Part shown: one piece after another, positions 1,318-7,220 of the stretch
How positions within the stretch are numbered: the first letter of the stretch is position 1
How the letters are laid out: every line of letters starts with the position of its first letter
Assembly: GCA_030698575.1 (NCBI GenBank)
Contig: JAUYMQ010000136.1
Location: forward strand, 1-8,454
Length of the DNA stretch: 8,454 nucleotides
Direction: 5' to 3'
Source of the DNA: Deltaproteobacteria bacterium
Lineage (GTDB): Bacteria > JAUYMQ01
Translations under genes and position numbers: made by a program
Notes under the pieces: model-generated
Seen by the model: only the letters and a program-made list of their open reading frames with translations
Told to the model about the DNA's origin: nothing
Databases searched by the model: none

Positions 1318-1917
1318 ATGGTCAATACCAGCGTCCTGGTTCTCAACCGCTCCTATATGCCGGTCCACGTGACAACGGCAAAACGGGCGTTTTCGCTTCT
1401 TTACCAGGGGCTTGCCCGCGCCATCGACCGGCATTACCAAACCTTCGATTTCGACAGCTGGACAGCGCTGTCGGTCGAGGCCGGGGATCCGCATATCGGG
1501 CTCATCGATCGTGCCATCAGGATCCCGATGGTGATCGTCCTGAGCGCCTTCGATCGCATGCCGCGACGCCACGTGCGCTTCAGCCGCTACAATATTTACG
1601 CGCGTGACGGCAATACGTGCCAGTATTGCGGAAAGCAGTACAGCCGCAGCGAACTCAATCTCGATCATGTGGTTCCGCGTTCCTGCGGGGGCACGAGCAC
1701 CTGGGAGAACGTGGTCTGCTCCTGCCTCACTTGTAACCGGAAGAAGGGCGGTCGTACCCCCCGGGAGGCCGGCCTCAAGCTTCTGAAGGCTCCCCGCCGG
1801 CCGAAGTGGACGCCGATCATGAGCCTCACGATGTCGGAGATCCGGCACCGCGAATGGCTTCCGTTCCTGAACATCGTTGACGCGTCGTACTGGAATACCG
1901 AGTTGCGCGAGGATTGA
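1318..1917 (+). CDS. HNH endonuclease family protein
   Basis: A 199-residue protein. The N-terminal third (VLVLNRSYMPVHV, then KRAFSLLYQGLARAID) matches the leader domain of a widespread small HNH family. The C-terminal part has a zinc-bound HNH fold: CQYC at 101-104, the Asp116-His117 pair in LDHVVPRS, Asn131 in WENVV, and CLTCN at 136-140, where Asn140 takes the third catalytic place. These are the expected metal and zinc ligands, so the nuclease core looks intact. The biological role of this chromosomal family is not established. It is often a lone gene with no methylase beside it, as here, which argues against a classical restriction system. The start at 1318 fits the family N-terminus although no Shine-Dalgarno is visible. 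The next gene follows after 120 bases on the same strand and may be cotranscribed. Confidence 0.88.
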   Translation: MVNTSVLVLNRSYMPVHVTTAKRAFSLLYQGLARAIDRHYQTFDFDSWTALSVEAGDPHIGLIDRAIRIPMVIVLSAFDRMPRRHVRFSRYNIYARDGNTCQYCGKQYSRSELNLDHVVPRSCGGTSTWENVVCSCLTCNRKKGGRTPREAGLKLLKAPRRPKWTPIMSLTMSEIRHREWLPFLNIVDASYWNTELRED

Positions 1918-3102: not shown

Positions 3103-3176
3103 CACCCCTTCATATTTCGAACCTCGAACGCCCGCCGTTCAGGCCAGCTTCCGGCGCGCGGCGGCCCCATGAACTG

Positions 3177-3914
3177 ATGATGCAAGACGAGATCAATCCC
3201 CACGAGATCCTTGAGATCGCACCCGGCGCAAGCCGCGGCGAGATCGAGCGTGCATACTATCTGGCGCGCCTCGCCTACGGATCGGACTCGCTGGCCTCTT
3301 ATTCTCTCTATTCGCCCGGGGAGCGAACGCTCATACTTGATCGCATCGAGCGGGCCTACCAGCTGCTGCTCGACGAACCCACGGGAGCGCCGCCTGGCGC
3401 CACTTCTGCGGGCGATGACGCGAGAGCGGCCGGGCGGGAAGCCCCAGCCGGCGCTACACCTCGCGCGCCGGTGCCTCCGGCGGACGAGTTCGGGGAAGCA
3501 GGTGCGGGCGCCCGGGGTAATGCTGATGGCAATGCGGAGGGTTCGCGCGTCGTTCCCGCCGGGCCCCCGCCCGTCAGGAGCCGGGAGCCGGTCCGGCCCG
3601 TTCCGGTCCGGCCGCAGATTGAGGCCACGGACGTTTCCCGACCCTACGTCGCCGGGGCGCTTCACCAGATCAGGAAATCACGGGGCCTCAAACTCGAGGA
3701 AATCGTGACGCAAACCAGGATCAGCCTGAAAAATCTCCGCCTGATCGAGTCAGGCGACTACGACCAGCTGCCTTCGGTCGTCTACCTGCGGGGATATCTC
3801 ACCCAATACGCCAATTGCCTCCGCTTGAGCCCGGCGGATGTGCTCGCCGACTATCTCGAAGCGATCGGCGGGGCGTCCGGCGGGAAGGGTGGCAAACCCG
3901 GAAAGCATGAGTGA
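3177..3914 (+). CDS. J-domain-like / RodZ-type helix-turn-helix protein
   Basis: A 245-residue protein in three parts. Residues about 8-67 (NPHEILEIAPGASRGEIERA, then a second helix ending in IERAYQLLLDE) have the helical pattern of a DnaJ J-domain. The His-Pro-Asp tripeptide that stimulates Hsp70 is absent, so it should not act as a true co-chaperone. Residues about 68-155 are a Pro/Ala/Gly-rich flexible linker. Residues about 157-231 are a RodZ/Cro-type helix-turn-helix, with LHQIRKSRGLKLEEIVTQT and the conserved block LPSVVYLRGYLTQYA. Unlike RodZ, there is no membrane segment after the HTH. ATG 3177 was chosen because it opens directly on the J-like helix; ATG 3180 is equally possible, and no strong Shine-Dalgarno is seen. 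It follows the MinD-like gene by 74 bases and overlaps the patatin gene by 8, which suggests cotranscription and perhaps partnership with the ATPase. Confidence 0.8.
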   Translation: MMQDEINPHEILEIAPGASRGEIERAYYLARLAYGSDSLASYSLYSPGERTLILDRIERAYQLLLDEPTGAPPGATSAGDDARAAGREAPAGATPRAPVPPADEFGEAGAGARGNADGNAEGSRVVPAGPPPVRSREPVRPVPVRPQIEATDVSRPYVAGALHQIRKSRGLKLEEIVTQTRISLKNLRLIESGDYDQLPSVVYLRGYLTQYANCLRLSPADVLADYLEAIGGASGGKGGKPGKHE

Positions 3915-5946
3915 CGACAAGAAGCTCGGTTTGGCGCTCGGCGGCGGAGCCGCGCGCGGATTTGCACATCTGGGCGTGCTGAAGGTCATCGAGGAAGCGG
4001 GACTCGGCATTCACGCCATCGCCGGGACGAGCATCGGCGCCATGGTCGGGGCGCTCTACTCGCAGCTGCTCCACCACCAGCTCGTCTGGGAGCGATTCGA
4101 CCGCTTCCTTCAGTCCGAGGCATGGAAGCGCTCGAAGCTGCATTTTCTCCGCGAGTCGAACAGCGTCCGCCGCGTCAGCTTCCTTTATAACTTCAAGAAC
4201 TTCGTCCGTCGCGGACTGATGTACAGCTCGACGGTCACGAAGATGTCGGTGATCCCTGAAAAGGACTTTATCGACGACATCGCCACCATCGTCGACGACA
4301 TCGATTTCGCGGAGCTGTCGATTCCCGTCAGCGTGGTGGCGGTGGATCTGAACACCGCCGATCAGGTCTTCATCACCAAAGGTTCCGTCCGGCGAGCCGT
4401 CACCGCGTCGTGCTCCATTCCGGGCGTGTTCCCCCCGATCGATCTCGACGGCATGCGCCTGGTCGACGGCGGGTGGGTGAACATCGTTCCGGTTGCAGCG
4501 CTCCCGGCGCTTGGCGCGGAAGTGCTGATCGCGGTGGACGTGGCCCAGGACGTCTCGGATACGCAGGATCTCAGGCACGGCCTCGATGTGCTCTTCCGGA
4601 CGAATGCCATTACGCGGCACCGGCTGAAGGAGCTTCAGCTCAAGCAGGCGGACATCCTCATCCGGCCCCGCGTCGATCACATCCACTGGGCGGACTTTTC
4701 TCGCATGGAAGAAGCTATGGAGCGGGGCGAGGAGGCGGCGCGCCAGGCGCTGCCGCAGATAGAGAGGCTCGTCCGCCCGGACGTTGCCAGGCAGGCCCCC
4801 CCGCCGCCTCCGCTGAGGCGAGAGGGGATTCTCAAACGCCTGCGTGCCGCCGTGACCGGCCCGGGATCGCGCTTCAACGCACAGTTGCTCTTCGTTTTTC
4901 TCCTGGCGGCCCTTGCGTCGGCCTGCGGATCGGCTTCGGAAATGACCCCGGCGAGCGAGACTGCATCTCTCCTGGCGGCGCAGGACGCCTTCGAGCGCGT
5001 CGGTAGCGAAGTGGTGCCGGCGGTGGTGAACATCCAGGCCGAGGGCGTCCATACGCGCGTCCAGGGCCCGGCGGGCGCCGAGAGCGATATGGAGTACCGC
5101 GGGCCGCGCGACGGCTTCGCGGCCCTCGAAGAATCGGGAATCCAGGGCGGTTCGGGGGTCATCACGAGCGCGGACGGTTACATTCTGACGAACCAGCACG
5201 TCATCGCCGGCGCCCGCCGCATCCGCGTGCGTCTTTCCGACGGGCGCGAGTTTCCAGCCGAGCGGGTGGGAACCGACGTCGTCACCGACCTGGCGATCAT
5301 CAAGGTGGATCCCCCGGCGCCACTCACCGTCGCCCGCCTGGGGAACTCTGATGAGGTGCGGCGGGGGCAGTGGGCCATCGCCATCGGCAATCCCTTCGGA
5401 CTTGATCACACCCTGACGGTCGGTGTCATTTCGGCGACGGCGCGATCGAACATCGGCCTCGACAGCTACGAAGACTTCATCCAGACCGACGCCGCAATCA
5501 ACCCGGGCAACTCCGGCGGCCCTTTGGTGGACATCAACGGTCTGGTCATCGGAATCAACAACGCCGTGGTCGCGCCGGGCCAGGGCATCGGCTTCGCCAT
5601 CCCGATCAACCTCGCCAAAGAGGTGCAGACGCAACTTGTCGCCAAGGGCCGGGTGACGCGCGGGTGGCTCGGGGTCGAGGTCCGGCGCTCCGTCGGCCTC
5701 GGCTTGCCCGATCAGGGCGGGCTCTTCATCGAGGCGGTTCACGATGGGAGCCCCGCCCAGAGCGCCGGCATCAGGCAGGGCGACGTCCTGCGTAATTATG
5801 GGGATCGGAAAATTTCCAACGTGCAGTCCCTCCAGCGCCTCGTGGCCCACACGCCCGTCGGCTCCCAGGTCGATCTGACCATCGAGCGGCGGGGCGAGGT
5901 CATGCAGGTCCCCGTCGTCATCGCGACGCGGGCATCCGATGGGTAG
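3907..5946 (+). CDS. Patatin-like phospholipase fused to HtrA/DegP-type serine protease with one PDZ domain
   Basis: One uninterrupted 679-residue frame with two enzymes. Residues about 7-295 are a patatin/RssA-like lipid acyl hydrolase: oxyanion loop GGGAARG (12-18), nucleophile Ser42 in GTSIG (40-44), and catalytic Asp187 in VDGG. A Pro-rich and basic linker (about 296-326) leads to a short hydrophobic run (327-339, LLFVFLLAALASA) ending at Cys340. The rest is a trypsin-like HtrA domain with His431 (TNQHVIAG), Asp461 (TDLAIIK) and Ser536 (GNSGGP), followed by one PDZ domain (about 586-675). Each enzyme alone is of normal family length and has its full catalytic set. The predicted layout is patatin in the cytoplasm and protease in the periplasm. 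Alternatives are two genes, with the second starting at GTG 4852 (a lipoprotein signal directly follows but no good Shine-Dalgarno precedes), or a false join from an error in the C7 run at 4796-4802. The start overlaps the upstream gene by 8 bases. Confidence 0.85.
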   Translation: MSDDKKLGLALGGGAARGFAHLGVLKVIEEAGLGIHAIAGTSIGAMVGALYSQLLHHQLVWERFDRFLQSEAWKRSKLHFLRESNSVRRVSFLYNFKNFVRRGLMYSSTVTKMSVIPEKDFIDDIATIVDDIDFAELSIPVSVVAVDLNTADQVFITKGSVRRAVTASCSIPGVFPPIDLDGMRLVDGGWVNIVPVAALPALGAEVLIAVDVAQDVSDTQDLRHGLDVLFRTNAITRHRLKELQLKQADILIRPRVDHIHWADFSRMEEAMERGEEAARQALPQIERLVRPDVARQAPPPPPLRREGILKRLRAAVTGPGSRFNAQLLFVFLLAALASACGSASEMTPASETASLLAAQDAFERVGSEVVPAVVNIQAEGVHTRVQGPAGAESDMEYRGPRDGFAALEESGIQGGSGVITSADGYILTNQHVIAGARRIRVRLSDGREFPAERVGTDVVTDLAIIKVDPPAPLTVARLGNSDEVRRGQWAIAIGNPFGLDHTLTVGVISATARSNIGLDSYEDFIQTDAAINPGNSGGPLVDINGLVIGINNAVVAPGQGIGFAIPINLAKEVQTQLVAKGRVTRGWLGVEVRRSVGLGLPDQGGLFIEAVHDGSPAQSAGIRQGDVLRNYGDRKISNVQSLQRLVAHTPVGSQVDLTIERRGEVMQVPVVIATRASDG

Positions 5947-5952
5947 AGCGAG

Positions 5953-6219
5953 ATGAGGATGATTGACACACCCGAAGAGGCCACCCGGCTGGCCCGCGCG
6001 ATCCTCTCTGACATCCGGGTTTACAACGAGCAGAAGATCCGAAAGGGCATCGAGGACGACACGGTGCTCGATCTGCTCGCGGAGGAGATCGAAGAGGGGC
6101 GCCGTCACTACCGGAGCCGCATCTCGCTGAGCCTGGCGGGGCGGACGAACTATTACAATCTTGCAATCGTCGACGTGCTGATCTACCAGAGCCGCAACGT
6201 TCGATCGAAGATCTGGTGA
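5953..6219 (+). CDS. Small conserved-looking protein of unknown function
   Basis: An 88-residue acidic, helix-rich soluble protein with no signal peptide and no membrane segment. The notable block is EEATRLARAILSDIRVYNEQ (8-27), followed by an acidic helix LLAEEIEEGRRHY and a Tyr/Asn-rich tail. I recall a similar RLAR-x-I/L-x-SDI-x-x-YN segment at the C-termini of deltaproteobacterial zinc-ribbon proteins, but I cannot confirm this here and assign no function. ATG 5959 is an alternative start two codons later. The gene begins 6 bases after the patatin-HtrA stop and its stop overlaps the GTG start of the rluD-like gene by 4 bases (GTGA). This position supports real translation as part of the operon. 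It lies in the same frame as the patatin-HtrA gene, separated by one TAG and two more codons. Confidence 0.72.
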   Translation: MRMIDTPEEATRLARAILSDIRVYNEQKIRKGIEDDTVLDLLAEEIEEGRRHYRSRISLSLAGRTNYYNLAIVDVLIYQSRNVRSKIW

Positions 6220-7220
6220 CCATCCCGGGTAGAAAGCGCCTCCGCGTAAAGCCCCCGGACGCCGATCAGCGGCTCGATGTCTTTCTGGCGGCCGCCGTTC
6301 CTGATCTGTCCCGGAGCCGCGTACAGCGGCTAATCCGGGAGGGGAAGATACGCGTTGACGGCAAGGCGCCCCGCTCCTCCGACTCGACGCGTGCGGGAAG
6401 CGTGATCGAGGTCGAGCTGCCGCCGCCTGCGCCGTCGTCAGCGCTGCCCGAGGACATTCCCCTCACGGTGGTCTTCGAAGACGCCTCGCTCATCGTTGTG
6501 GTCAAGCCGGCCGGTCTCGTGGTCCATCCGGCCGCCGGGCATGCCCGGGGAACGCTGGTCAACGCGCTCCTTCACCATTGCCGCGACCTCTCGGGCATCG
6601 GTGGAGTGCTTCGCCCCGGCATCGTCCACCGAATGGACAAGGGGACGAGCGGCCTGCTTGTCGCCGCCAAGAGCGATCGCGCCCATGCAAGCCTCGCGGG
6701 GCAGTTCAAGGAGCACACGGTCGACCGCGAGTATCTGGCCATCGTCTGGGGGCGGTTTCGTGATCAGAGCGGGCGCTATGATCAGCCCGTGGGTCGGCAT
6801 CCCCGGGACAGGAAGCGCATGAGCGTGACGAGCCGCCGGGGGAAGGAGGCCGCGACGCTCTACCGTGTCGAGAGTGAGGCTGCGGGAATGACCCTCCTCC
6901 GGCTGAAGTTGCTCACGGGGCGGACGCATCAGATCCGCGTCCACCTGTCGTCGGCGGGGCATCCGGTGCTGGGCGACCCGACCTACGGCGGCGCGACTTC
7001 CCGGGGGGCGGCCGCGCTGCCGGCGTTGAGGCCCATTGTCCGCGGGCTCGGGCGCCCGGCCCTGCACGCGACCGTTCTGGGCTTCGATCACCCCGAGACT
7101 GCAAAGCGGTTCAGATTCGAATCTCCGCTCCCGCCGGATCTGAGAGAGGTCTGGGGGCGGCTCGAGGCGCTCCAGGGGGGGCTTCAGGGTGGTTCAAGTT
7201 TTTCACGAGGGCCCCGATAA
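6216..7220 (+). CDS. rluD: RluA/RluD-family 23S rRNA pseudouridine synthase
   Basis: A 334-residue enzyme that converts uridine to pseudouridine, in RluD at helix 69 of 23S rRNA. Residues about 8-70 are an S4 RNA-binding domain (RLDVFLAAAVPDLSRSRVQ, then GKIRVDGK). The catalytic domain has motif I VVVKPAGLVVHPAAG, motif II GIVHRMDKGTSGLL with catalytic Asp141, and motif III LLTGRTHQIRVHLSSAGHPV, then LGDPTYGG. All family motifs are intact and the length is normal. The S4 domain and overall form fit RluD better than RluA, but site specificity cannot be read from sequence. The GTG start at 6216 overlaps the previous stop by 4 bases, indicating translational coupling. The Gly/Ser-rich C-terminal tail after about residue 320 is not conserved in the family. 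No terminator is visible after the stop. Confidence 0.93.
   Translation: MTIPGRKRLRVKPPDADQRLDVFLAAAVPDLSRSRVQRLIREGKIRVDGKAPRSSDSTRAGSVIEVELPPPAPSSALPEDIPLTVVFEDASLIVVVKPAGLVVHPAAGHARGTLVNALLHHCRDLSGIGGVLRPGIVHRMDKGTSGLLVAAKSDRAHASLAGQFKEHTVDREYLAIVWGRFRDQSGRYDQPVGRHPRDRKRMSVTSRRGKEAATLYRVESEAAGMTLLRLKLLTGRTHQIRVHLSSAGHPVLGDPTYGGATSRGAAALPALRPIVRGLGRPALHATVLGFDHPETAKRFRFESPLPPDLREVWGRLEALQGGLQGGSSFSRGPR

Follow-up and report, generated by a model that had tools for sequence, protein, structure and literature searches.

The open reading frame at positions 3907-5946 (+) of the window, the 8,454-base contig analysed here, joins a patatin-like phospholipase to an HtrA protease; the open frame is real, its parts are known and the gene pair is conserved, and the apparent fusion has been found once, in this one draft genome. 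We consider it probable that the frame descends from an ancestral pair of operon genes joined by a single change at their junction, and that the hydrophobic segment between the two domains is the signal peptide of the HtrA. The joined frame is unusual, but probably does not encode a new transmembrane sensor.

Domains of the joined frame

Read from ATG to TAG, the frame is uninterrupted and encodes 679 amino acids within a stop-to-stop stretch of 705 open codons. The Pfam search was run on a 702-aa reading starting at ATG 3838; this codon lies within the upstream gene (stop at 3914), and 3907 is therefore the likely start. A complete patatin domain is followed by a hydrophobic stretch of 13 residues, an HtrA protease domain and one PDZ domain (Table 1). 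The joined frame, the domains and the catalytic residues named in the initial annotation are all present where it placed them, and so is the hydrophobic segment between the domains, the main one being residues 327-339, LLFVFLLAALASA, directly ahead of Cys340. A 769-aa antisense ORF (3799-6108) was set aside as a shadow of the GC-rich coding region.

Table 1. Features of the joined frame and its neighbours in the window
Feature	Position	Strand	Basis or remark
Upstream gene, HTH_25 domain (RodZ-like HTH)	3156..3914	+	Pfam; 8-bp overlap with patatin ATG
Patatin-like phospholipase part, residues 1-315	3907..4851	+	Pfam PF01734, E 1.8e-27
Pfam patatin core	3931-4500	+	Pfam PF01734
Patatin Ser42	4030-4032	+	GTSIG motif
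Patatin Asp187	4465-4467	+	DGG motif
C7 run in proline-rich linker	4796..4802	+	Sequence
+1-frame TGA; patatin would end here (~303 aa) if C7 were one base shorter	4814..4816	+	Translation
GTGA; its frame-0 GTG is the probable ancestral HtrA start, and a +1-frame TGA overlaps it	4852..4855	+	Alignment
Probable lipoprotein signal peptide: hydrophobic core plus lipobox (residues 327-340), LLFVFLLAALASA followed by C	4885..4926	+	Hydropathy, aligned Cys
HtrA trypsin-like protease domain, residues 415-550 (His431, Asp461, Ser536)	5149..5556	+	Pfam, alignment, AlphaFold2
Single PDZ domain, residues 588-670	5668..5916	+	Pfam PDZ_2, E 1.5e-11
orf88, small conserved protein	5953..6219	+	6 bp after HtrA stop; 4-bp GTGA overlap with RluD
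RluD-type pseudouridine synthase, conserved operon neighbour	6216..7220	+	Domain match, locus comparison

The two halves were aligned separately, since rows with only a patatin and rows with only an HtrA could not be usefully aligned together, and their AlphaFold2 models were likewise built apart, from alignments of the window and locus proteins. The patatin half contains the Ser-Asp dyad (GxSxG, DGG/A) and the GGG oxyanion motif that define PF01734; across 27 aligned patatins G12-14 are conserved, and Ser42 and Asp187 are invariant. Its model has a confident domain core (mean pLDDT 87.9), and the nearest solved structure is that of PlpD (5FYA: E 3.5e-20; TM 0.84 by target length). The catalytic motifs and the fold are shared, at ~30% identity, with RssA/YchK-like patatins (NF007623) and the PlpD patatin domain (5FQU/5FYA), although the window patatin falls short of the curated RssA cut-off (NF007623; 125.6 vs 272 bits). 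The PlpD patatin continues into a secretion barrel; in contrast to such type Vd proteins, with their POTRA and beta-barrel, the window protein has an HtrA as its C-terminal half. Identity to stand-alone patatins is 31-43%, and since these relatives finish at 292-339 residues, with basic tails, a patatin part extending to about residue 303-315 has a normal length. From what is known of the family, the patatin is most likely a cytoplasmic hydrolase of membrane lipids or acyl esters.

The HtrA half shows the composition of the HtrA/Do family, that is, a His-Asp-Ser triad in a trypsin fold, with one or more PDZ domains after it. The triad was located by motif (TNQHV, His431; TDLAI, Asp461; GNSGGP, Ser536), the 702-aa reading gave a Trypsin_2 match (E 3.7e-34), and among 22 aligned HtrAs His431 and Asp461 are invariant and Ser536 nearly so. 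The model, confident in its domain core (mean pLDDT 83.7), matches the DegQ, DegP, AlgW and DegS proteases with E-values of about 1e-32 to 1e-28, and identity to AlgW and DegP is ~40%. The protein scores below the cut-offs for both the Do family (TIGR02037; 349.9 vs 416.2 bits), the second PDZ being absent, and DegS (TIGR02038; 222.4 vs 422.95 bits). The protein ends after a single PDZ domain (5668-5946), an arrangement found in DegS and AlgW, whereas the HtrAs of genomes G035, G060 and G061 and one Geobacteraceae homologue have two each. Unlike HtrA/DegP/DegQ, AlgW and DegS, the window protein carries a lipobox in place of a plain anchor and is joined to a patatin. By analogy with its family, this HtrA is most likely a lipid-anchored protease that degrades misfolded envelope proteins.

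The probable signal peptide and the search for other fusions

The same patatin-HtrA tandem occurs in G035, G060 and G061, in each case as two genes. In G035, the HtrA ATG lies 27 bp downstream of the patatin TGA; in G060, the stop of the patatin and the start of the HtrA overlap within GTGA; and in G061, the HtrA gene begins with an ATG located a few bases ahead of the patatin gene end. All three HtrAs begin with a signal peptide that ends in a lipobox-like cysteine (LTAGC, LFAC and AAAC, respectively), and a lipobox signal peptide is also found in Geobacteraceae HtrAs at the equivalent locus (orf88 downstream; RluD too, except in L038). These tandems share gene order and signal-peptide type with the window and differ from it in their separate genes and two PDZ domains. 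In the G035 HtrA (L118:7246-8628, -), IDELAGGPL replaces INPGNSGGPL; because the catalytic serine is missing, this protein is probably an HtrA-PDZ lipoprotein without proteolytic activity.

In the HtrA alignment, GTG 4852 coincides with the start codons of the lipoprotein HtrAs of the relatives, and from this GTG onwards the MTGPGSRFNAQLLFVFLLAALASAC of the window matches their signal peptides from start to cysteine, with the lipobox LASA-C340 aligning its Cys with those of G035, G060, G061 and the Geobacteraceae HtrAs. A GTGA junction of this kind is also present in G060 and, within the window, between orf88 and RluD (6216-6219); upstream of GTG 4852 there is no convincing ribosome-binding site. 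Judged as a lipoprotein signal (charged n-region, hydrophobic core, N-terminal lipobox [LVI][ASTVI][GAS]C), the segment has the hydrophobic core and LASAC, and is internal unless GTG 4852 is the start. Given the usual length of the patatin and the alignment of the signal peptides, the hydrophobic segment is best read as an inheritance from a stand-alone lipoprotein, and the apparent membrane segment is most likely HtrA's own lipoprotein export signal.

The full protein was searched in 386 genomes from across the bacterial domain, in 7 of the phylum of G035 and in 3 of the phylum of G040, and the patatin half in the same 386. In the 386-genome search with the full protein, the best three candidates per genome were scored with a strict cut-off, but any fused homologue would be expected at the top of such a ranking. 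Only in the window were both halves matched without interruption, with no second fusion among about 390 other genomes and none in a plasmid set, where no record covered 80% of the fused query. A single-sequence fusion query against genome contigs gave matches on the HtrA side alone. An exact search of viral contigs for the junction region yielded none, and patatin matches on viral contigs did not exceed 33% identity, one 44-residue stretch excepted. Among the open-access papers retrieved by a search for such a fusion, none describes a patatin-HtrA protein in its title or abstract. The initial annotation had held that close relatives always encoding two separate genes, with a stop near 4816, would refute the fusion; separate genes are indeed what G035, G060 and G061 have, but this answers the question only by half, since the window's phylum is represented by one genome and all relatives compared come from other phyla.

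The junction and competing readings

In a codon model built on long ORFs taken from 185 kb of this genome, frame 0 is favoured both before and after the junction, with a weak stretch at about 4774-4816. The 12 codons at 4817-4851 score 2.05 in frame 0, a coding-like value (in-frame mean 1.84, SD 2.6; off-frame mean -3.1, SD 2.6) that makes translation through the junction plausible. C7/G7 runs are frequent in the ORFs of this genome (24 in 139 kb). Among the 16 scorable runs in long ORFs, the best frame is kept in 11 and lost in 5, the latter all in ORFs of poor coding signal, and 9 of the 9 runs with clear coding signal on both sides keep the frame. The C7 run of the window is not an obvious error.

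An assembly or sequencing error, by which two genes of the real genome are joined through one wrong base at or near the C7 run, overlaps with our preferred explanation and differs from it only on the natural existence of the joined frame. It would be in keeping with the draft, metagenome-type assembly (4.13 Mb in 653 contigs), with the normal family length of a patatin ending at the +1-frame TGA, and with the GTGA at 4852, whose register would suit a patatin read in the +1 frame, as in G060. However, the frame is held by such runs in clearly coding ORFs, the remaining genes of the window are intact, and the frame-0 tail ILKRLRAAV resembles the basic tails of the family; the coding score at 4817-4851 also weakly disfavours the simplest error model, with TGA 4814-4816 as the patatin stop and 4817-4851 as intergenic sequence. 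We regard such an error as a real possibility that is on balance doubtful. The C7 run may have a missing or an extra base, with codon usage leaning slightly against it (reads showing a missing base there would, according to the initial annotation, refute the fusion), and the chances that the joined frame exists in the real genome appear slightly better than even. If transcription or translation slipped at the C7 run, a short patatin and the fused chain could both arise, which would fit the position of the run directly ahead of the +1-frame stop; given how common such runs are in this genome's ORFs, and that the run is not conserved and shows no sign of slippage, we consider this highly improbable.

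The initial annotation had envisaged a single-chain transmembrane enzyme, with a cytoplasmic patatin, a periplasmic HtrA-PDZ and one helix between them, that couples envelope stress to lipid hydrolysis. Such an enzyme is compatible with a frame that is open with every catalytic residue, with coding-like codon usage from 4817 on, with the modelled linker (helix 305-317, then a hydrophobic helix 325-339) and with the single PDZ domain, which recalls the membrane-anchored stress sensor DegS. Yet this helix is homologous to lipoprotein signal peptides and retains an intact lipobox, the tandem relatives have two genes, no fusion was seen elsewhere in about 390 genomes and the plasmid set, and nothing ties patatin activity to sensing by HtrA. 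The case for a cross-membrane sensor is thus weak, and we judge it possible but unlikely. That a real, stable patatin-HtrA polypeptide spans the inner membrane in this phylum-level lineage only, with a periplasmic PDZ/protease controlling cytoplasmic phospholipid hydrolysis, seems to us decidedly unlikely.

We propose, then, an ancestral operon pair in which the gene for a cytoplasmic, RssA-like patatin lipid hydrolase preceded that for a lipoprotein HtrA with its own signal peptide. The frames would have been joined by one change at the junction, a stop loss or a one-base indel, in the lineage or in the assembly; conceivably, an in-frame stop ahead of GTG 4852 was lost, or the patatin tail acquired an indel of one base. 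The hydrophobic segment would accordingly be the HtrA signal peptide and not a purpose-built linker. The likeliest products would be two activities in two compartments, a cytoplasmic patatin and an exported HtrA that is lipid-anchored at Cys340 and acts on misfolded envelope proteins. Should a single chain be produced, the segment would enter the membrane with its N side cytoplasmic, and lipidation and cleavage before Cys340 might part the halves, with a lipobox ~340 residues into the chain; internal initiation at GTG 4852 would likewise give separate halves.

Operon context and functional implications

The genes flanking the joined frame overlap or almost touch (Table 1), and locus comparison reveals a conserved operon of the form GntR-HNH-(ParA-HTH25)-patatin and/or HtrA-orf88-RluD-(Rho). 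Without HtrA, it occurs as GntR-HNH-patatin-orf88-RluD in G020, G173 and G311 and as patatin-orf88-RluD in G040; without the patatin, Geobacteraceae have lipoprotein HtrA-orf88-RluD. The order is patatin-HtrA-orf88 in G035 and patatin-HtrA in G061, with RluD and Rho further downstream, and in G060 RluD again lies downstream. The absence of either the patatin or the HtrA from some of these loci argues that the two work as separable units.

A joined chain, if real and stable, would to our knowledge be a domain pairing not described before, and would connect quality control of envelope proteins with the turnover of membrane lipids. The firmer outcome is the operon itself, with a patatin and/or a lipoprotein HtrA, orf88 and RluD, in several phyla. 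Its conservation across phyla suggests a functional link between patatin and HtrA even as separate proteins, and their conserved adjacency suggests a shared role in envelope maintenance. A caution also follows, in that the "transmembrane linker" of a fused frame may be a leftover signal peptide.

Several neighbouring genes have features of their own. The 88-aa product of orf88, for which Pfam and NCBIfam returned no match, recurs at 39-51% identity in several phyla, with Geobacteraceae among its carriers, beside patatin/HtrA and RluD. The HTH_25 protein, encoded just behind a MinD/ParA-like ATPase, has an N-terminal part that looks J-domain-like by eye. A small HNH protein of the window (1318-1917) has counterparts, 53-59% identical, near patatins of this family in several other phyla, and there are weak matches between its HNH region and IscB/Cas9 models.
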